This document shows positions 24,515 through 61,844 of a DNA stretch of 64,000 nucleotides, piece by piece. Made by a program: the position numbers and the translations under genes. Within the stretch, counting starts at the first letter, position 1; every line of letters starts with the position of its first letter. This DNA comes from Mycoplasmataceae bacterium (GTDB lineage: Bacteria; Bacillota_I; Bacilli_A; Mycoplasmatales; Mycoplasmoidaceae), in NCBI GenBank assembly GCA_031265955.1, contig JAISBY010000010.1, positions 1 through 64,000 on the forward strand, read 5' to 3'. Under the pieces are notes generated by a model. That model was not told the origin of the DNA. It made no database searches and worked only from the letters and a program-made list of their open reading frames with translations.

Positions 24515-26048
24515 ATGTTTATTTCAATTAAGCCTAAACCAATATCCAATAACTCCAAAGTTTATTTAATAAAATCTTTTCGTGATGAACAAGGTAAAAC
24601 CAAACAACGCATAATAAAAGATTTTGGTAATTATTATGAATTGTTGAAAGAAGATAAACATTTTTTAGAAAAACTAAAGGCAAATGTGAAGAATTTAGAG
24701 ACAGATTTTAGTCAAAAAAATTTGGATGTTAATAAGGAATATAATTTTGGTTACTTTTTTATTGTAAGAATGATATTATCTATGAAATTGCGAATTTTTA
24801 TTTTAAATAGAACCAGAAATAAAAATGAATATTTGTATAAGTGATTTGTTAACGAAATTATTAGGACTTTTATAAAAAAAGATCTTTTTGAGAATAGATA
24901 TGCAATTGACAGTACCAACGAAATGGTAAATTTAGGGAGGGGGGGGGATAGAAACGATTGTAAATCAACTAAAATTTGACTTGTTGTTATATATATATTT
25001 AAATCATTCTTCTCGTTTAGTGAACAAAGACATTTGCTATGCAAGATTGTTCTCAGTTTATAGCAATCCAAACATTAATGTATTAGTTTGTTTTGATGTA
25101 AATATGATTCCTTTTATCTATAAAATTTTAAACACCACCCATCTATCTAACATTCATTTGTTATTATTTACTTTAAAGCAATTTTATAAAGTGAAAACAT
25201 TTATATGTGGGATGAACCTGTGAAAGATTGTAAACAAAAAGTCCAATGATTATATTTTGCTTGATTATGCGATTAGTAATTTAAACGGTACTGGATATAA
25301 AGCAAATATAGAAAAAATAGTTTTATCTAATTTTCATTCATTAAAAATGAAACCAAAATTTTTACAATTAAATTATCTGGATTCAAATACAAAAAAAGTT
25401 GAAACATCTTATATTATTATTAAGCTTGACATTCAAAAATTACTTTTATTGGTTAAAAAAAATATTGGCGAAGGAAGATTTAAGATTGATTTATTTTTAA
25501 ATACTCCTAATTTGATTCAAAATCAAGGTGTAATTAATTTGCTGTCCAATCATTTAAAAAAATCCAGTGATGAATCAAAATTGATTTTGAAATCTATTAT
25601 GATTGATAGCGTCAGAATTTATTTAACATCAAATTGCATGCCGTCGAATATTGATAAAATTTCATTATTTTTAAACCAAGACTTGAACTGTACTTTTTTT
25701 CAACAAAATTTTATAAATAATTCGACAGATTTTAATTATTTTGTTGACCATAATAAAATTGAATTCAGATATTTTTTAAATTTCATATTCATTATTTTAT
25801 CTATGCAAAGTGCACATTCTTTGGGTTTGTCTTATCAAAGTATGTTTGATATTATTTGTGGATTAACTTTGCATCAGACAAAAGACAATAATTATATTTT
25901 TAGTTTTCCTTCTGTTGAGCGTAATGACATAATCAAAATTAATCAGACTGTTGGTACATTCTTTGAGAGTTCTTTCATTACTAAATATGATATTGTAAAA
26001 GAAAAAATTAGATTAATTATTTCGGCAAAAGATACTAGTTTAAATTAA
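24515..26048 (+). CDS. IS1634-like transposase-derived protein, out of frame at a G9 tract
   Basis: Upstream and downstream parts are in different frames, joined at G9 (24939-24947). With eight G the product would be about 510 residues. The N-terminus (VYLIKSFRDEQGKTKQRIIKDFGNYYEL) and the C-terminal pattern (MFDIICGLTLHQ ... YIFSFPSVERNDIIKINQTVGTFF) resemble IS1634-family transposases, as does a YNFGYFFIV segment. The catalytic aspartates are not evident: the strand usually reading VADxGL reads FICGMNL. No terminal inverted repeats were found. It is more likely a domesticated or decaying relative than an active element. As sequenced the frame ends at a TAG near 25061. Confidence 0.6.
24939..24947. 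repeat. homopolymer G9, frame-breaking
   Basis: Nine G preceded by GGGA. Reading from 24515, nine G lead to a stop near 25061, whereas eight would join the two parts of the transposase-derived frame. Confidence 0.85.
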
Positions 26049-27112: not shown

Positions 27113-27549
27113 CTTTTGCTACAAAATACATTAATTTCATCAAAATCACGAGTGCTTACTAAGAAATAAAATAGGGTATGTATTTTCATTGCATGTTTCT
27201 ACTAGATATGATTAAATAATGACTAAATGAAATTGATTGTTTAAAAATCATCACAATCAGCAGAGATAGTTCCAATTTTAGGTGATCTTTTGATAATAAT
27301 CGTCATTGGTTTAAAACTAAAAATGACAGATTATGAATTTTTGAGATTAATTCATATCGTTAAAAATTTTCAAACAATATATTGAAAAATAAAACAATAT
27401 AGGGTTTTATAAAATTGTTACATCCCTAAGCTTCATACGTAAAGATGATAGGTAATTAATTTAAAAAAAAAAAAAAAAAAATATTTATGAATATGATTAC
27501 AGTTATTTAGAAAAGCAAAGGGAATGGAATTAGATTTAGCAATTTCATA
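27113..27549. other. intergenic region without a clear gene
   Basis: This gap lies between divergent surface genes. A stop-free stretch of 55 codons without a start codon runs on the plus strand from 27245 to 27412 (contains LLIIIVIGLKLKMTDYEFLRL). It may be the remains of a gene but is not convincing. An A19 run lies at 27463-27481. Nothing else is recognised. Confidence 0.4.
27463..27481. repeat. poly-A run (A19) upstream of surface gene A
   Basis: Nineteen A, about 165 nt before the ATG at 27646 and about 70 nt before its dyad element. Long poly-A runs upstream of surface lipoprotein genes are known phase-variation sites in other mycoplasmas. Confidence 0.7.
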
Positions 27550-38457: not shown

Positions 38458-38950
38458 ATTCAAATAATATGGTCTTTAATACGATCTTATCAATAATTTC
38501 TACGAAATAAAGTGTTTTAAGTCAATATTTTGTTATCCTAAATCGCACCCATTATTCTAGTCTGAGTCATACCACGAAGTTTTTTGAATTAAATTCATGT
38601 TTACCATAGTGTGTTGTTCTTTTACTCAAAGTAAATTTGAGTAATGTTAATATTGCAATTACATTTAGTAGCGTAACATTACCTACATCATAACTAATTA
38701 CGTTATTTTTTTTGAAAATTACGACAAAACCGACTTTGGTACATATGGCTTTTTTCTTTTTAAATCACATACAAATACCCCCCCCTATGCAGAAAATTAA
38801 ATCATATAATATGGCATGCAATCAAATAGGGGGGGGATTAGACGCTATAGTGTTGTTAGCACTAATTTAATCTTCTTTCTAAAAACAAAATTATTACATT
38901 CGTAACGATCTTGTTTTTTTGCTATATATATTCATTAAAAGGAGAAAATT
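38458..38950. other. intergenic region with paired C8 and G8 tracts
   Basis: About 490 nt with no convincing gene. It contains C8TA (38778-38787) and TAG8 (38827-38836), which can pair as a 10-bp GC-dominated stem around a 39-nt AT-rich loop that includes a TATAAT-like sequence. Further down, AAAAACAA ... TTGTTTTTTT (38881-38920) forms a terminator-like stem before the next gene, whose AAAGGAG ribosome site is clear. Confidence 0.55.
38778..38836. repeat. inverted homopolymer pair C8 / G8
   Basis: Eight C at 38778-38785 and eight G at 38829-38836 in opposite orientation, each flanked by TA towards the loop. Both arms are expected to be length-unstable and to form a strong cruciform or RNA hairpin. 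Confidence 0.75.
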
Positions 38951-39811
38951 ATGAATAAAACAAAAATATTATTAGCGACGCTAATTTCGGCTACGGCATT
39001 GGTATTTGCCGGAACTGGCGTTGGTATTGGTTATGCCATATTCAATAACAGCAAATCAAACGAAATTACAATTGATGAACTAAAAAATGATTTATTAACA
39101 AAATATACTTGTATCGATACACCTGAAAAACCGATATCGGTCAAAAATACTGATACAACTTCTGGCCAATATACACCTATTTCTGTAGAACCATTAAAAG
39201 ATTTTTGTAGTGGCAACCCTTATAGTTGAACCACAACTATTACTGGAACTAAGTGAATGAATACCGATCAGATGATTTCATATGGATCTTTTTTTGCATA
39301 CTTTAATGATACGGCTCCTTTTAAAACTGGCAAAATTTTAAAACAGCATCAAAATACAACATCCAATATCAATATTGAAAATTACACATATGAATCCAAT
39401 TATAAAATAGATAATTATTTCGTGGATTTTTACAATGTTATGTATTACACGCATATTAGTCTTTCGTTTGTAGAAACAAATTCTAGCATAACTAATAATA
39501 CAGATGGTTCAAAAATACTCTTTAATGATATTAGTAATGCAGGTAATATATTTGTGCCAAGCTTATGTGCAAACTCATTTTCGGGTTCATCCTTTGATGA
39601 TCTTTGAGAAGTTTCATATGTTTTGGGTGTAATATACAATGGAGATTTTTATTTATTTTTACTGCATAGTGCAACCACTTTTCTCGCATCAACTGTTATT
39701 AGTTTAATTAATAACGGCCAATTTGTATTTTCTTGCCCGACAAATTACTCATCAAATTACTTTATGAGTAAAGTAATTGATATGGACGTTAATACCGTTT
39801 CCGATCAGTAA
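38951..39811 (+). CDS. surface protein E, unknown
   Basis: 286 residues, MNKTKILLATLISATALVFAGTGVGIGYAIF as N-terminal anchor, very like the anchor of the BspA-like protein (TGGIGVGIGYAIW), followed by an Asn/Ser/Thr/Tyr-rich ectodomain with no recognised domain and a hydrophobic patch (FYLFLLHSATTFLASTVISL). A strong AAAGGAG ribosome site lies 8 nt before the ATG. Upstream is the C8/G8 inverted pair, which could regulate it. Function is unknown; a surface location is inferred. Confidence 0.75.
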
Positions 39812-41347: not shown

Positions 41348-42817
41348 ATGAATTTGAATAAATCAAAGATTTTGACTCCTATTATTATGTCTTTTATTTT
41401 CCTGACCGGGGGGGGTGCTGCATCATTATTATCTTCATGTTCTATCACACAACCATTGCTTCAAGTGGGAGGGGACAATGAAATACAATGATTGCCTAAT
41501 ACGAAAACAGTTGCTACCGCTACATGGTTAGGGTATTCTGGGAATACCATTAAATATTGATACGATTCTCACGGCAATGATGAATATTTTACATTAGATG
41601 ATTCAAATAGAACCGTAAATTCATGACATTTAATTTTTGACATGAAGAATCCGCAAGAAATTACTAATAGTTTCGTTATCTCAGTTTATTTTCAGGTAGA
41701 AAATACCAAGTATATTCAACATCATGATATTAAAATTGACCAATATACTCCACAACCAGAACCAGTAATAATTGGTGATTGAGGGATAAACAAAGGATCT
41801 GATCCAGCGAGTTTTTGCCCCGTTCCTAAAACTGATTTGTCTACAAATAATTCTATTTCGATTTGTTTGGATTATCTTTATGAGATTGGTGACTCTTCTG
41901 ATAAAATTTCTGCAATTTCTAACCAATTGAAAGCAGATTTCACTTACTTTATGAATGAAAGTGTTGACAATATTGCTCATGCAATTATTCTCTACAAATC
42001 GGTGAATTCATACAATTTAAATATTAAATTCGCTTATAACGCTCAGGAAAGATTATTTTCTAGCGCCGAAATTGATGGCACTATAAAATATAATTTAATC
42101 GTAGGCAGTACTGAAGTTGCTTTCCACATTGACCTACACAATTATTTATTTATTGGTGCCTTTAGTGCAAATCATGCTAATTTATCTTACAACGATCCTT
42201 ACAATAACAATAATGGTCACAAAGATTACAGCGGGAATATAACGACAGGAAATTGTTTGGGTTTGAGCCCACTTGATAATGATAGTTTTTATCATTTCAA
42301 AATTAACGGTGGTTCAGGTCTAATCAATATGGAACATACTTATTGCATTAATGCCGTAAAGTTTATTGGCATTGAAGACATCGGTAATGCCGGAAATGAG
42401 GCTGGCATATATGTGAAGAGTTGATATTTAAAAGATATTCAAACAATTTATCCAATTGACCTTTCGCCTATTTTAACACAAACATTAACAATCAATAACT
42501 ATTGGATTCCAGGTGATGTAGATGCATTTTGTGATGAAGATAATGGCAAGGGATGAAACAATAAAAATGTTGATTCTGTAGATAAATTCCAATTATTTGA
42601 TAAGTGTGTAGGAAGCGAATGAAGAAACATTGTTATTCAATATGCTGATGGCAAATCAATTACTCTAGATTATCGACAAATTTTTGACAAAATTTGAGCT
42701 TGAAAGGATGGTAATAGTGTTTCAATAAATGTTTTTCCATCCTATTATTTTTATATTAACGATTCATGATTTTACAGCTACACTTCACAAAATATAATCT
42801 TCAATAATAGCCCTTAA
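41348..42817 (+). CDS. phase-variable lipoprotein (ON) with G8 in its signal peptide
   Basis: 489 residues. The signal peptide has a basic start, a hydrophobic core and the lipobox SLLSSC with the lipidated Cys at residue 31, the clearest lipobox in the window. A G8 run (41408-41415) encodes Gly21-Gly23 inside the signal peptide and the frame is intact, so the gene is ON; one base more or less would stop synthesis before the mature protein. The mature part is Asn/Asp/Trp-rich with no recognised domain. The promoter contains an A16 tract, so transcription and translation may both switch. A surface antigen role is inferred. Confidence 0.82.
41408..41415. repeat. homopolymer G8 in lipoprotein signal peptide (in frame)
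   Basis: Eight G at codons 21-23 of the lipoprotein gene. The current length keeps the frame open (ON). Confidence 0.88.
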
Positions 42818-42830
42818 TGGGTTATCTGAA

Positions 42831-43794
42831 CTATGCTCACAAACCGTTAATATCAAATTTTCACAAACTTTGAAAAGGATCACCAGTTAATAAACAAATA
42901 GCACCAAAGTAAATCATTCCACCCGCTAAAATTGATGAACATAAAATAAACAATATTATGAAAGTAATTCTTGTTGCGGGACGATCTTGATAGATTTTTT
43001 TACCTTTCGCCATTTTGTAAATAGTTTGATTGGGTAATATGGCATGCATTTTTAGAATTCATCATTCATTCATAGACTCAAAGAAATTATTTCATTTTCA
43101 AAATCGTACTACTGCATAACACAATAAAACAATAACCATTGCGGTAAAAATATCCACAATATAGTGCTGTCTTACAAATAAGACGGAAAGAGATACTAAG
43201 ACAAACATTATTCCTGTTACTAAAATCATCCAACAATTATTCTTTTTGTTTTTCTCAGTTTTGTTCCAACAAGCAACAAAGGGTAAAAAAGTACATAACA
43301 CATGAAAAGATGGCGCAAGATTATCGGGAAGGTCGTTTTCATAAACCATTGTATTCATAATATTTCATAATGGTTTGTCTTTATAAGTTTGAATATTAGA
43401 ATAATCAATATAGCTCATTTTGGATGGTAGAATTACCAACCAACAAAAACCGATAATTTGAGTGAATAAAGTGGCGGCAACAAATTGATAAAAAACTTTT
43501 TTGCCCATTATGCCATATATGACGAACGGAATGGCAATTCAATAGAAATACGACAAAATATAGGGAATTACAAAGAAAGATACAAAAGGTATTTGATGAT
43601 CAATTGGTAGACTCCAATCAAAAAAACTATGGCCATTAGCAAAAACTGTATGTGTAATTAATCTAGCCAATAGGTATCAAAAACGGTTGAATGCCAATAG
43701 TAATCCTGGCATTAAAATAACAATGATATGATTTTTTAATCATAATCAAAATTTTTTATGTTTGACGGGGGGGGGATAAAAAGGTTTTACTCAT
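42831..43794 (-). CDS. PAP2-superfamily membrane phosphatase, out of frame at a C9 tract
   Basis: An ATG at 43794 starts a frame that meets nine C on the coding strand (43775-43767) at codon 7 and then stops within a few codons. With eight C it would read on as a 320-residue polytopic membrane protein. The body shows PAP2 motifs: LAPSFHVLCTF (PSxxH) and FVRQHYIVDIF (RxxxHxxxD). It would act on lipid phosphates or pyrophosphates, or transfer head groups. The ATG overlaps the end of the MBL hydrolase gene by 8 nt. It is currently OFF; an internal start after the tract is possible but unattractive. Confidence 0.72.
43767..43775. repeat. homopolymer G9 (C9 on coding strand), frame-breaking in PAP2 gene
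   Basis: Nine bases where eight would fuse the start codon to the PAP2 reading frame. It lies at codons 7-9. Confidence 0.85.
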
Positions 43795-44434
43795 TATCTG
43801 TTTTGTTGATTATATCTTTAAGGAAAGGATTGCTTTTTTTAATTTCAGTAAGTTGACTATTAGCGCCATGCCCCGGAAATATTCAATCATCTTCATTATA
43901 ATGACTAAGAAATAATTTCAATGACTGATTCATATCATTAAAATTTCCTAACATCAAGTCGGTTCGCCCAATAGAATCATAAAAAATAGTGTCCCCGCTA
44001 AACACATAATTTTTGTATTTTAGAATTATTCCGCCTGGGGTATGACCTCTTGCAAGCAGTACATCAAATGCAAAATTACCAATGATAAGAGTGCTGCTGT
44101 CAAAATATTTGATTGAATTATGATCAATATTAACTTTCACTTGCATTGCATCACCGTAGTGATATTTTTCAACGATTGGTTTTTCGTTGTGATGTAAATA
44201 AACATCAACATGATAAAATTTTGCTAAATTAAAAGTATTGCCAATATGATCGTAGTGACCATGTGTTAACACTATACCCACAAGTTTTAAATGATGTTCT
44301 GTAATATAACTCTTAATTGGCTCATCATTTAAACTTGGATCAATGAGCAAACATTCATTATTTTTGATAATTAAATAAGAATTTACTAAAAATCTGCGAT
44401 CAACAAATATTTTTAAATCGTTCCATGTTTTCAT
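43787..44434 (-). CDS. metallo-beta-lactamase fold hydrolase (glyoxalase II-like)
   Basis: 215 residues. Metal ligands are visible: THGHYDHIGN (HxHxDH), GHTPGG (His), FSGDTIF (bridging Asp), and the C-terminal FPGHG (His). FYDSIGRTDL is typical of the YcbL/GloB-like subgroup that hydrolyses thioesters such as S-lactoylglutathione-type substrates. The exact substrate is unknown, particularly in a mollicute without obvious glutathione use. It diverges from the hydrogenase operon, with overlapping -10 boxes. Confidence 0.88.
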
Positions 44435-44485: not shown

Positions 44486-44992
44486 ATGAGTGATACAAAT
44501 AGTGGTTCATTGGCTTGTGAGACATGCAAGACAAATGATACTTTTGATATTTTTACTATCAAAGTTAAAGAAATTAAGGCTAAAAACGGTACTAAATTAA
44601 TGGCGTTACAAGAGGCACAAGTACAATTTGGCTATCTTGATAAAGATGCGATGAATATTGTTGCTAATGTATTTGAAACAACTACCAGCGAGATTTATTC
44701 CATTGCTTCTTTTTATGCTCAATTTAAATTTGTAAAACAAGGTAAGTATCGAATTGCGCTTTGTTTAGGAACGGCTTGTTATGTTAGAGGTGCTTCCAAA
44801 ATTCAACAAAAATTAGAAGAAGTATTACAATTAAAAATGGGCGAAACATCCAAAGATGGTAAGTTTACTTTAGGTAGCGCTAGATGTGTTGGTTGTTGTG
44901 GATTGGCTCCGGTAATGTTAATTAATGAAAAAGTTTATCCTGCGGTAAAACCTGAACAAGTGCCAGATATTATTAATGAATACAACGACTAA
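44486..44992 (+). CDS. hydC: NADH-dependent [FeFe] hydrogenase, gamma subunit (NuoE/HydC-like)
   Basis: A 168-residue thioredoxin-like [2Fe-2S] protein of the NuoE family. The four cluster cysteines are in CLGTAC (about 93 and 98) and CVGCC (about 134-138). A helical N-terminal part (LMALQEAQVQFGYLDKDAM) matches the NuoE fold. An additional CETC pair near residues 11-14 is unusual. It passes electrons between the flavin subunit and the hydrogenase. First gene of the three-gene operon; CGGAG lies 8-12 nt before the ATG. The next gene starts 8 nt after its stop. Confidence 0.92.
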   Translation: MSDTNSGSLACETCKTNDTFDIFTIKVKEIKAKNGTKLMALQEAQVQFGYLDKDAMNIVANVFETTTSEIYSIASFYAQFKFVKQGKYRIALCLGTACYVRGASKIQQKLEEVLQLKMGETSKDGKFTLGSARCVGCCGLAPVMLINEKVYPAVKPEQVPDIINEYND

Positions 44993-45000
44993 GGATAGTT

Positions 45001-46881
45001 ATGAGCAAAATGACAATTGAACAATTAAATAAAATTAAAGATGAATTCAAAAAAAATATTGAGCAACGTAAAATCCACCAAGAAGCTAGTTATCAAGGTA
45101 AATTCCAAGTCTTAGTTTGTGCATCCACTGGATGTATATCCAATAAATCCTTATTAGTTTTAGAAAGATTTTCTAAAAAAGTTAAAGAGGCAGGATTATC
45201 GGATCAAGTGGATATAGTACAAACAGGATGCCATGGATTATGTGAAATGGGTCCTGTCGTAATTGTATACCCACAAGGTGCATTCTATGCCAAAGTATCG
45301 GTTGATGATGTTGATAAAATTGTAGAGCAACATTTAAAAAACAATCAAATCGTTAAAGAAAAATTATTTTGAGAATCATTTCAAAATGATAAATTAGTTC
45401 CCTTAGATCAAACTGGATTCTACAAAAAACAAATTCGTATCGCATTAAGAAATTCTGGATTAATCAATCCCGAAAGAATTGAAGAATATATTGCGACTGA
45501 TGGGTATCAAGCTTTGTGAAAATCTTTAAATATGAGCCGTGAAGACGTTATTAAAATTGTTAAAGACTCAGGTTTAAGAGGCCGAGGTGGCGGCGGCTTT
45601 TCTACTGGGACTAAATGGGAATTAGCATATAAAGCTGCTGGTAAGAAGAAATACGTGTGCTGTAACGGTGATGAAGGTGATCCAGGAGCTTTTATGGATC
45701 GTTCTATTTTGGAGGCGGACCCCCATGCTATTATTGAAGCAATGGCAATTGCAGCATATGCAATTGGGGCAGACGAAGGTTATATTTACGTTCGTGCCGA
45801 ATATCCAGTCGCAGTTAAACGTTTAGAGATTGCTATTAAACAAGCAAATAAGCTAGGATTACTAGGACGTAATATTTTTGGGAAAGATTTTAACTTCAAA
45901 TTAACCATCCGTTTAGGAAGTGGCGCTTTCGTTTGTGGTGAAGAAACTGCCCTAATGACTTCAGTTGAAGGTAATCGTGGTGAACCAAGACCAAGACCTC
46001 CGTATCCAGCGAATCAAGGATTGTATAAATGCCCTACGATTTTAAACAATGTTGAGACATATGCTAATATTTCCAGCATTATTAATAAAGGGGCACAATG
46101 ATTTGCTTCAATCGGAACTGCCAAATCAAAAGGAACTAAAGTATTTGCATTAGGCGGCAAAATTAAAAATACTGGACTCATTGAAGTTCCGATGGGAATT
46201 ACGCTTCGTGAAATTATTTATGACATTGGTGGTGGCATTTTGAATAATGGTAAATTTAAAGCAGCACAAACCGGTGGTCCTTCTGGCGGATGTATTCCTA
46301 ATGAATTAATCGATACGCCAATTGACTACGATAATTTATTGGCAATCGGTTCCATGATGGGTTCAGGTGGTTTAATCGTTATGGATGAATCATCTTGTAT
46401 GGTGGATATTTGCAAATTTTATATGGAATTTTGTGCCGATGAATCATGTGGTAAATGTGTGCCGTGCCGGATTGGTAACAAACGCTTGTTAGAACTATTA
46501 ATTGACATTACTGAAAGTAGAGGTAAAGCTGGTGATATCGAAAGATTAGAATCATTATGTCAACACATTAAGGCTACTTCACTATGTGGTTTAGGTCAAA
46601 CTTCACCAAATCCAATTCTTTCCACCATTCGCTATTTTAGACCAGAATATGATGCGCATGTACTAGAACATCGTTGCCCAGCAGGAGTGTGCAGCAAATT
46701 ATTACAGTATCGTATCGTTCCTGAATTATGTAAGAAATGCTCGTTATGTGCAAGAACTTGCCCGGTGAAAGCTATTAGTGGTGAAGTTGGTAAAACACCT
46801 TATGTGATTGATCAAAGTAAATGTATTAAGTGTGGTGCTTGTATGGGTGCATGCAAGTTTAAGGCGATTGAAAGAAAATAG
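45001..46881 (+). CDS. hydB: NADH-dependent [FeFe] hydrogenase, beta subunit (NuoF/HydB-like)
   Basis: 626 residues with the layout of Thermotoga-type HydB and Desulfovibrio HndC. An N-terminal [2Fe-2S] domain is followed by the NuoF flavin domain ([43 protein letters not shown]) that binds FMN and NAD(H), then a [4Fe-4S] site ([12 protein letters not shown] ... C). A C-terminal two-cluster ferredoxin domain carries [12 protein letters not shown] and [11 protein letters not shown]. It oxidises NADH and, in bifurcating relatives, couples to ferredoxin. An AAGGATAGTT site precedes the ATG. Confidence 0.94.
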
Positions 46882-46889
46882 GAGTACTT

Positions 46890-48632
46890 ATGGAAAAAAT
46901 GATAAATTTAAAAATTGATGGTATTCAAGTTAGTGTTCCACAAGGTTCAACTATTTTAGACGCTGCAAACCAAGCTAATGTGCGTATCCCTACATTATGT
47001 TTTTTAAAGAAGATTAATGCCATTGGCGCATGTCGTATTTGTTTGGTAGAAGTTAAAAATATGAGGCCATTAGTTGCAGCGTGTGTCTACCCAGCTAGTG
47101 AAGGCATGGAAGTATTGACTCATACACCACGTGCGAATAAAGCACGTAAAATTAATTTGGAATTAATTCTATCTGCACACGTGAAAAATTGTCTATCTTG
47201 TACTAAATCAATGTCTTGTGAATTGCAAAAATTATCGCTAGAATATGGTTGCAATGAAAATCATTTTAAAGGAGCGATGCCTGAAAGAATTGTTGATAAT
47301 TCTTCACCATCTATTATTCGTGATTCTCAAAAATGTATTTTATGCAAACGTTGTAAAGCGGCTTGTTACGAAACTCAAGATGTTAAAGTGATTGCTGTTA
47401 ACAAACGAGGTTTCGAAAGTTATTTAGGTTGTGCTTACGGCGTTGAAATTAATGATACAGCTTGCGTTGCTTGTGGTCAATGTACATTAGTTTGTCCGAC
47501 TGGAGCGTTAATGGTTAAAAACGACATTGATAAAGTTTTGAATGCATTGAATAATCCGGAATTAACGGTAGTTGTAGCGCCCGCGCCATCAGTGCGCGTG
47601 GGAATTGCTGAAGAATTTGGTGAACCAGTTGGTACTAATGCTGAAGGACGTCTAGTAACTGCTTTACGAATGTTGGGATTCCATAAAGTTTTTGATATTG
47701 ATTTTGCTGCTGATTTAACCATTATGGAAGAAGCGAACGAATTAGTTGAGCGAATTCAAAACAAAGGAGTCCTTCCGATGATGACTTCTTGTTCACCAGG
47801 ATGAGTAAATTTTTTGACTGCTTATCATCCTGATATGATTTCTCATTTATCAACTGCAAAATCACCGCAGCAAATGTTCGGTGCTACTGTAAAAACTTTC
47901 TGGGCTGAAAAAAATAAATTAGATCCAAGTAAAATATTTATCGCAACAATTATGCCGTGTACTGCTAAGAAACATGAAATTCTTCGCAAGAAAGATACAC
48001 ACCAAAATACACCAGATATTGATGCGGTATTAACAGTACGTGAGTTGGGAATCTTATTAAAACGCCAGGGTATTAACTTTAACAAACTACAAAATTCTCG
48101 ATTTGATGATCCACTTGGCGAATCAACTGGAGCTGGTGTTATTTTTGGGGTAACAGGTGGCGTCATGGAAGCTGCATTAAGAACAGCAGCCGATACTCTG
48201 ACTGGTCAATCATTAAAAAACATTGATTACAAAAAGGTTCGTGGTATTAAAGGTATTAAAGAAGCAACGGTTGATATTAATGGTGCAAAAATTAATGTTT
48301 GTGCAGCGAGCGGATTAGCTAACGCTCAAAAAGTATTGGAAGACGTTAAAAGTGGCAAAAAACAATATCACTTTATTGAAATCATGGCTTGTCCAGGTGG
48401 GTGTGTAAACGGTGGTGGCATGCCTATTCATGATCCTAATATAGTTTCTTTTGAAGAACGTGCTAAAATACGGGCAAAGTCCATTTATAAAGAAGACGAA
48501 CGTAAAACAATTCGCAAGTCACACGAAAATACTCAAATCATTCAATTGTATAAAGAGTATTTTGGTAAACCTGGCAGTCACAAAGCTCATGAAGTATTGC
48601 ATACATCATTTGATAAACGCAGGTTTGTATAG
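46890..48632 (+). CDS. hydA: [FeFe] hydrogenase catalytic subunit (HydA-like)
   Basis: 580 residues that produce or consume H2 at an H-cluster. From the N-terminus: a [2Fe-2S] ferredoxin-like domain (CFLKKINAIGACRIC), a His/Cys cluster site (HVKNCLSCTKSMSC), two [4Fe-4S] motifs (CILCKRCKAAC, CVACGQCTLVCP), then the H-cluster motifs L1 TSCSPGW (Ser in place of the second Cys of TSCCPxW), L2 MPCTAKKHE and L3 EIMACPGGCVNGGGMP. A C-terminal small-subunit-like tail is fused (EERAKIRAKSIYKED). Maturases HydE, HydF and HydG must lie elsewhere. AGGAG lies before the ATG. A strong terminator follows. Hydrogenases are very unusual in mollicutes. Confidence 0.95.
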
Positions 48633-59653: not shown

Positions 59654-61844
59654 TTATGGTACTACCGTTACATAAATATCAAAATATACGTAAAAATAAC
59701 CTGAGTATCAATAACGAAGTTTTCCATGAAATTCACCAGCCATTCTTACTGCAGTTAATTCTAATGTCACCACTCCTTGGTTTGATTGCAGAGTAGCAGT
59801 TACTGCTGTAGAATCAGGAAGTCATGCTCAGGTACCGGTAGTAAAAGTTTGATCTCCTATAGTGTTATATTTTACTGAACATGTTGAACCAATCGTCATG
59901 CCAAAATGTATACCATCGGTTGTTGCTGTTTCAGGTATAGCAGAATTATTAACATAACTAATACTGTATGGAGCACTAAGACTTTCTTGCATTACGATTG
60001 TCGTTTGGACAGTAGTTGTTTCATATTCACTGTACGAAAATGTGATTGACAAATTAAAATTTTTAGTTTTATTAATGGTTCCAGGAACTAAAATTTGCAT
60101 AGTATTTTGGTTTTGATTATAAATCGTAATATCACCATTATCATCATGGGTGTCGCCAGACAATTTTCATATTCCATATCTGTCAGTAGCAGGATTTGTA
60201 TTGTTGAATGTAAGCACATTCCCGTCTAGTCCCCCATACATACTTGTGCTTGGAGGGCCACTAATTATTGGTGTAGTAAGTGGAATAATATTTAATGTAA
60301 CAATCATTGTAGCAACCATTCCAATTGTACTAACGGTATATGTAATAGTAATTGTATGAATGCCAATTGTTGCAACATTAGTTCAATTTAACGTTCCGTT
60401 AGTGAATGTTACACCATTGCCAGTTCCAGTAGCACTCCATACTCCACCACTTGTAGCATTAGTATAGACGTGGCTACCATCTATTGTTTGGTGCCCATCT
60501 ATGTAATTTCGTCCGATAATTGGAGTAGTATCAAATGGCGCAACATCAAGCAAACATGTTGTTGAAATATTTGATTGTCTATTATCTGAAATAGTTATAG
60601 TTTTGTTACCTGCTGTTAAATTTGAAGAGGTTGCACCTAAAGTGAGCAAAAAATAATCTCCACTCACAGTCATTTGTGTAGTCAAACCAGTGGCCCCTGT
60701 AATTGTAAAATTATTAATAGTAGTAGTGGTTAAATAATTAATTGTCTGAACTTTAACCGTAGCATCAGAAGTAGTATTTCCAACTTGAAGACTGTTAGTT
60801 TGAACAATAGCTTGTAATTTTCTTGCTGGAGCAATAGACAAATCAAATTCTAATTCAGTATTATCAGAGCCAATAATTGTAATGTGGATCGGATCGTTTG
60901 ATACTAGCGAAGTGGTTTCCGTTAATGTTAAAATTACATTCTGGTCAGTCGCATCGCTAAATTGACCTGAAATTAGTGCTGTACTTACTGAAAAACTCAT
61001 TTCAGAAATTGGCGCATCATTTACTGCTGTAATTTTAATTACAGCAGTAGAATCAACATTATCAACTTGAAGATTGTTAGATTGTATTTCGAAATTATAA
61101 AATTTAGTGGCATCAACTTTTTGAATTACGAATGTTGTGATGGAAGTGAAATTTTCATAATTTAATTCAGCAGTTATTGTGTCAGGCAAAGCATTGTTTG
61201 TTAAAGTTAAAGTAAACATTGCTTGGTCATTAGTTGGAGGTGCTAACACTATGCTAACATATGCGCTAGCATCAGTGCCCGTTCCATTTTTCAATGTCAA
61301 ATTACTTGTACTAATATTCAATAAGTTAGCCCCGTTATAACCGTTAGCAGTTAGGGTGATTTGATTATCAACGCCTGTTCCTTTACCTATTTGCATTTTA
61401 CCAGTAGTCTCTAAATTAAATGCACTTCTTTCTTTTACCAAGAAATCGGTATATTTAGTATCTATACCAACAGTTATGGCAATTTGGTAAGTGCCAGCCA
61501 TAATTTCTTTATAAGTTTCTGGGATTGTTACAGTTAATGTACTAATTAATCCATTAGTTACTATTTGATCAATCTGAAATAACTGGTTACATTCAATTTC
61601 ATCTTTAAAAAAATTAATTTTAGGTTCAACTCAATTTGAAGTTAAAGATTCAGTAATTCTAATTTGCATTGAACTGTTAGGATCGTATTCCCTTAAGTTA
61701 TCATTGCTGATTTCTATATTAAAACTAATGTGATGAGTAACTGAATTATTGGCAAGGATATTAGTGCCAACTACTACGCCTGTCGCCCCCCCCCGTTGTT
61801 GCTATTGCTGCTACTGCAATAGCCAATTTGGTTTTTAAAGCCAT
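59654..61844 (-). CDS. large phase-variable surface protein F with beta-repeat domains, currently out of frame
   Basis: The ATG at 61844 opens MALKTKLAIAVAAIATTGG, a signal peptide interrupted by nine G on the coding strand (61794-61786). As sequenced it stops after about 28 codons; with eight G the frame runs on for about 729 residues. The body is Thr/Asn/Ser/Ile-rich with repeated beta-sandwich-like units of about 90 residues (LQVDNVDSTAVIKITAVNDA and LQVGNTTSDATVKVQTINY are related), like bacterial Ig-like surface repeats. GGGAG precedes the ATG. The promoter has a T17 spacer, so both transcription and translation may switch. OFF as sequenced. Confidence 0.78.
61786..61794. repeat. homopolymer C9 (G9 on coding strand), frame-breaking in surface protein F
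   Basis: Nine bases at codons 17-20 of the surface protein. Eight would restore the full frame. Confidence 0.87.

Follow-up and report, generated by a model that had tools for sequence, protein, structure and literature searches.

A poly-C tract that probably phase-varies a PAP2-superfamily membrane enzyme gene in a Mycoplasmataceae bacterium

Introduction

Phase variation in mycoplasmas has mostly been discussed with regard to surface antigens and restriction systems, and in wall-less bacteria the lipid bilayer is the sole envelope. The closest described cases of switched lipid enzymes come from other bacteria. In Helicobacter pylori, homopolymer slippage within pldA (OMPLA) yields either a complete or a truncated lipid-acting membrane enzyme (PMC3490997). 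In Neisseria, eptA, encoding a lipid A phosphoethanolamine transferase, is phase-variable (PMC10525099). Among mollicutes, 'Candidatus Mycoplasma girerdii' switches surface proteins through simple repeats, as metagenomic reads showed; many of its wild-type alleles are OFF, and a G(8) tract controls a type III mod gene (PMC5476646).

A sequence-only reading of the locus described here had called phase variation of a lipid-modifying enzyme unusual. This was overstated, as pldA and eptA precede it. Our literature search found no report of a phase-variable PAP2, nor of a phase-variable membrane-lipid enzyme in mycoplasmas. Here we describe a PAP2-superfamily gene whose frame is interrupted at a run of nine C. 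Judged from its sequence, it is very probably a slipped-strand contingency (phase-variation) locus, captured OFF at C9 in this assembly.

Results

The window, by which we mean the whole 64,000-nucleotide stretch analyzed, belongs to a draft genome assembled as 11 contigs, with a total of 980,658 bases and 89% completeness. Its genes have open frames only if TGA encodes Trp. The PAP2 gene contains nine TGA codons (TGA=W), and a reading with table 11 would make it look shredded. The locus comprises the following features:

43787..44434 (-), upstream MBL-fold hydrolase gene, 215 aa (Pfam PF00753, E=8e-22)
43792..43794 (-), ATG start of the gated ORF (MSK...), read from sequence
43767..43775 (-), C9 homopolymer, the proposed switch, from codon 7 of the gated ORF
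42831..43769 (-), frame of the PAP2-superfamily membrane protein 3' of C9, 312 codons plus stop in code 4 (PAP2_3)
43710..43712 (-), first in-frame ATG 3' of C9, within the first hydrophobic segment

The ATG of the gated ORF sits in the last codons of the MBL-fold gene. The resulting 8-nt overlap, for which the earlier coordinates were exact, suggests translational coupling of the two genes. Tract length was then varied in silico under code 4. The C9 frame of this assembly closed after 12 amino acids and the C10 frame after 19, and C8 gave 320 open amino acids ending at 42831. The previous claim that nine C are present, with eight opening 320 residues, was therefore reproduced exactly, and the full PAP2 frame is available at one of three tract lengths, C8 (mod 3).

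The tract would be irrelevant if translation began 3' of it. The in-frame ATG at 43712 would give a protein of 293 aa, and the G043 orthologue is also without an in-frame ATG upstream of this region. However, the ATG at 43712 cuts the first hydrophobic segment and is thus not a credible alternative start, and no Shine-Dalgarno-like sequence was found 5' of it. Most orthologues retain 20-30 more residues, with an MSK/MNK/MPK start and a conserved HIIxILLPALLL. Their N-termini lie at the same place (MSKQF in G037, MSKVF in G044, MNKKSF in G038, and MPKNHF in G055), and most of them keep the N-terminal residues encoded on either side of the tract position. A start 3' of the tract, named beforehand as an outcome that would count against a switch, is disfavored by the kept MSK-type N-terminus and the position of the ATG within a hydrophobic segment. 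We consider it scarcely conceivable.

Assignment of the protein to the PAP2 superfamily relied on profile matches and catalytic motifs. Pfam PAP2_3 scored 28.2-28.3 bits (cut-off 27) and PAP2 scored 27.2, at its cut-off, with PF01569 matching 7 of 10 orthologous sequences. Two motifs were located within the gene:

43302..43313 (-), catalytic motif PSFH (PSxH), with P, S, and H unchanged across 10 orthologous sequences
43152..43172 (-), catalytic motif RQHYIVD (HxxxD), with R, Q, H, and D unchanged across 10 orthologous sequences

The C2 (PSxH) and C3 (RQHxxxD) motifs were present together in all 10 orthologous sequences, and the C1 motif KX6RP was found in none of the 10 (the window protein and nine orthologues). 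Because KX6RP is missing, the protein is assigned to the PAP2 superfamily and not to proven phosphatases. Thus, of the original label "PAP2 lipid phosphatase", the superfamily part stands on PAP2_3, PSxH, and HxxxD, and the phosphatase part is unproven. The nearest solved structure by profile was Bacillus subtilis PgpB (YodM, PDB 5jki), a weak match (E=0.031). The PSxH and HxxxD regions of PgpB-type PAP2 phosphatases align with the window protein, but their KX6RP motif has no counterpart in it or in its nine orthologues. Hydropathy indicated several TM-like segments, and an AlphaFold model built from two sequences was unusable (pLDDT 44). The enzyme may be a phosphatase or a head-group transferase, with a lipid phosphate or a lipid head group as its putative substrate.

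The closest orthologue (L061), from a Mycoplasmataceae MAG, is 69% identical, and G044 and G055 retain the MBL-PAP2 pair together with divergent NuoE/NuoF. In the window, NuoE/NuoF-like subunits and an [FeFe] hydrogenase occupy 44486-48632 (+) next to the switch, which is unusual for a Mycoplasmataceae genome. Among direct orthologues in nine other species, none had a G/C run of at least 7 near the gene, which makes the C9 tract lineage-specific. The contrast between ON and OFF genomes accordingly comes from paralogue B (below) and not from the window gene's own orthologues.

A decaying pseudogene, in which tract expansion was a neutral frameshift in an unneeded gene, would also account for a broken frame. 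Many genomes of the genus are without an orthologue, so the PAP2 gene is dispensable. Decay is nonetheless opposed by the state of the gene, which has no other stop in its 312 downstream codons and whose catalytic residues are invariant. The window branch is not faster than its sister (Tajima unique changes of 25 vs 23, 16 vs 24, 18 vs 18, and 22 vs 26), and dN of 0.22 with dS of 1.27 (dN/dS about 0.17) indicates purifying selection. The lack of acceleration and this ratio imply a gene in use, now or until very recently. Tracts also recur in PAP2 paralogues. We regard decay as very improbable.

Long G/C runs are far more abundant than expected. Overlapping C7/G7 matches in the window numbered 19, vs 0.63 expected from dinucleotide shuffles. 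Counts of G/C runs in the window fall through lengths 1-6 (13896, 2657, 347, 54, 8, and 0) and rise again at lengths 7, 8, and 9 (2, 4, and 3). The whole genome contains about 67 G/C runs of at least 8 (104 overlapping 8-mers minus 37 overlapping 9-mers), and the longest of 63 runs examined was 10. The window excess, together with these genomic runs, led us to reject a chance tract. Runs of 8-10 are part of a bimodal length distribution and cluster within 60 codons of the start in surface and membrane genes. Specifically, 28 of 62 scored runs lay that close to the start of an ORF no shorter than 120 aa, with the frame intact in 18 cases and broken in 10; tract context was taken from the stretches around tracts, and gene-level background rates are approximate. 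About 14 of the gated ORFs encode lipoproteins; their tracts lie within the signal peptide or immediately after the lipobox cysteine. Others encode membrane proteins (PAP2, TMEM164-like, EI24-like, and DUF5378-like), some intact and some broken.

A/T runs served as a control. The frame was broken at 12 of 47 in-ORF G/C runs vs 0 of 39 A/T runs of at least 8 (Fisher p=3.7e-4), on which basis a generic homopolymer error was rejected. The same data bear on a specific indel at this tract, whereby the true length would be C8 and the gene ON in every cell. In a draft of 11 contigs, represented by one assembly at 89% completeness, a homopolymer of nine is where a consensus indel would most readily arise. 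Against this, long G/C runs are truly over-represented and placed at gene starts, A/T runs break no ORF, and like gating occurs in several separately assembled genomes. Moreover, a C8 tract would still be a hypermutable switch, caught ON. An indel is therefore unlikely, in our judgment.

Alternatively, the C9 allele could be expressed constitutively or leakily, through +1 ribosomal frameshifting on proline CCC or RNA-polymerase slippage, with the tract tuning the level of product. CCC runs are +1 slippery sites for tRNA-Pro, and C9 needs precisely the +1 direction. However, tracts in the genome are often sense-strand G and occur in all phases. A C9 frameshift site leaves G8, G9, and G10 in lipoprotein signal peptides unexplained, and the tract is not conserved in direct orthologues. 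This explanation appears quite improbable.

MutS (MutS_V) was absent from 36 of 36 genomes of the genus, with 11 of 14 control genomes positive. It is on this absence, in 36 genomes, that a slippage-permissive background rests.

We gathered 63 PAP2-like genes from the genus, several of which carry G/C tracts. In paralogue B, a G9 tract follows the first transmembrane segment at an identical position in G000 (C3:370063), where it is in frame, and in G038 (C6), where it is out of frame. The two proteins are 52% identical, and the coding sequence 5' of the tract is conserved (FIKKNYKALDHVFY.../FVKKNYRFLNHLLY...). Two PAP2 paralogues of G055 are out of frame, on C16 (G9) and at C5:24692 (G8). Paralogue C carries a C-terminal G8 before the last transmembrane segment at corresponding places in G000, G037, and G043. 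In the 10 genomes whose tract counts were known, PAP2 genes contained 9 tracts vs 1.77 expected (P=1e-4; post hoc, with rounded genome sizes). Without the window gene, 8 remained (P=5e-4 in the same post-hoc test with rounded genome sizes).

Judged from these sequences, G/C-tract gating is recurrent in the PAP2 family of this clade, which is noteworthy. A further proposal is that several PAP2 paralogues have independently and repeatedly come under G/C-tract control, at the gene start or at the first or last transmembrane segment. Clonal populations would then hedge membrane lipid chemistry in a combinatorial manner, and this would be a strategy under selection instead of a by-product of hypermutability. 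We put this forward tentatively, as a possibility that is somewhat doubtful at present.

Two membrane proteins of the TMEM164 family in G000 also carry tracts (C9 at codon 38, C1:11754; G8 at codon 201, C3:392229), which makes TMEM164 a candidate for a second lipid-related, tract-controlled family.

A separate, repeated poly-G element was observed in leaders, and several of the intergenic G tracts are part of it. Its order is a TATAAT-like box, about 20 nt, G8-10, a structured leader that ends in a terminator-like hairpin, and the start codon of a lipoprotein or other surface protein. Copies include:

Window 38814-38930 (+), leader copy preceding the ORF at 38951
Genome G000, leader copies at C7:37871, C2:68165(-), C3:387390(-), C5:77266, C3:337479, C3:243204, and C3:300143

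The poly-G forms one strand of a predicted stem, with a pyrimidine run opposite, and compensatory changes occur at 10 of 38 predicted pairs. A search of Rfam at an E of 1 or better returned just one sub-threshold plant miRNA match. Of 36 genomes in the genus, 7 contain matches to a covariance model of the leader, among them G000 with 15, G037 with 21, G044 with 34, and G038 with 9, a few of these matches being antisense duplicates. G runs span 5-11 in the copies read of G000, G037, and G044, and most copies read in G038, G043, and G055 are without a G run. The leader is possibly a phase-variable switch at the RNA level. In the window, a C8 tract (38778-38785) lies 43 nt upstream of the leader G8 (38829-38836), so that the promoter region falls between complementary tracts. 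Such C..G tract pairing is frequent in genome G037.

Additional tracts were noted in the window. Poly-A runs at 27463 (A19), 41289 (A16), and 61893 (A17) lie immediately upstream of ORFs for surface proteins (27580, 41348, and a minus-strand ORF with C9 at 61786), in an arrangement reminiscent of mycoplasma poly-A promoter switches. Besides its upstream poly-A, the gene at 41348 contains a G8 at codon 21. The C9 at 61786-61794 is at codon 22 of a 734-codon surface-type protein, which runs on the minus strand to 59654 and is out of frame here. A G9 (24939-24947) splits a would-be 510-codon ORF into 24515-25063 and 24981-26048 (+). This ORF has no confident Pfam match and, judging by its look, is possibly a transposase, which would make it a phase-variable or programmed-frameshift mobile element. 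Elsewhere, at G000 C3:451976-463000 (L081), four tandem paralogues encode surface-type proteins; three span about 500 codons and the fourth 369. All four contain a poly-C (8-10) at codon 41-43, and their phases are mixed.

Discussion

Our reading of the PAP2 gene as a contingency locus draws on the geometry of its frame, the set of G/C tracts, the missing MutS, purifying selection on the gene, and the opposite-phase tract of paralogue B. The initial proposal of a phase-variable, C9-gated PAP2 gene is the most likely account, given the genome-wide tracts, the A/T control, the unaccelerated gene, and the paralogue tract in opposite phase.

Under the proposed model, replication slippage in the C9 at codon 7 would alter tract length. 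At C9, the frame would shift and translation would stop after 12 codons, leaving PAP2 OFF. A tract shorter by one C, or longer by two, would restore the 320-residue polytopic PAP2-superfamily membrane enzyme. Translation probably proceeds via coupling to the MBL-fold gene, which would itself always be ON. Slippage from C9 to C8 in daughter cells would then lead to the membrane enzyme being made in a subset of cells. We infer that tract length varies in the population and that membrane chemistry may differ between cells. If this is true, a recurrently gated membrane enzyme family makes stochastic membrane remodeling directly testable, and switching could show in metagenomic reads alone, so that culture is not needed.

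Among described systems, 'Ca. M. girerdii' resembles the PAP2 host in being a mollicute with repeat-length switches, one of them a G8. It differs in that, in the portion of the report considered here, the repeats are mainly dinucleotides in BspA-like and restriction-modification genes, with no lipid enzyme among them (PMC5476646). Neisseria eptA belongs to another enzyme family, and its substrate, lipid A, is missing from wall-less mollicutes. H. pylori pldA encodes a Gram-negative outer-membrane phospholipase with its tract at residues 226-228, in contrast to codon 7 here, and its switching was characterized in clinical isolates. As with the PAP2 locus, an in-gene homopolymer gates a lipid-acting membrane enzyme (PMC3490997). 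The mechanism is ordinary slipped-strand phase variation, and it is the recurrence within one enzyme family that is noteworthy.
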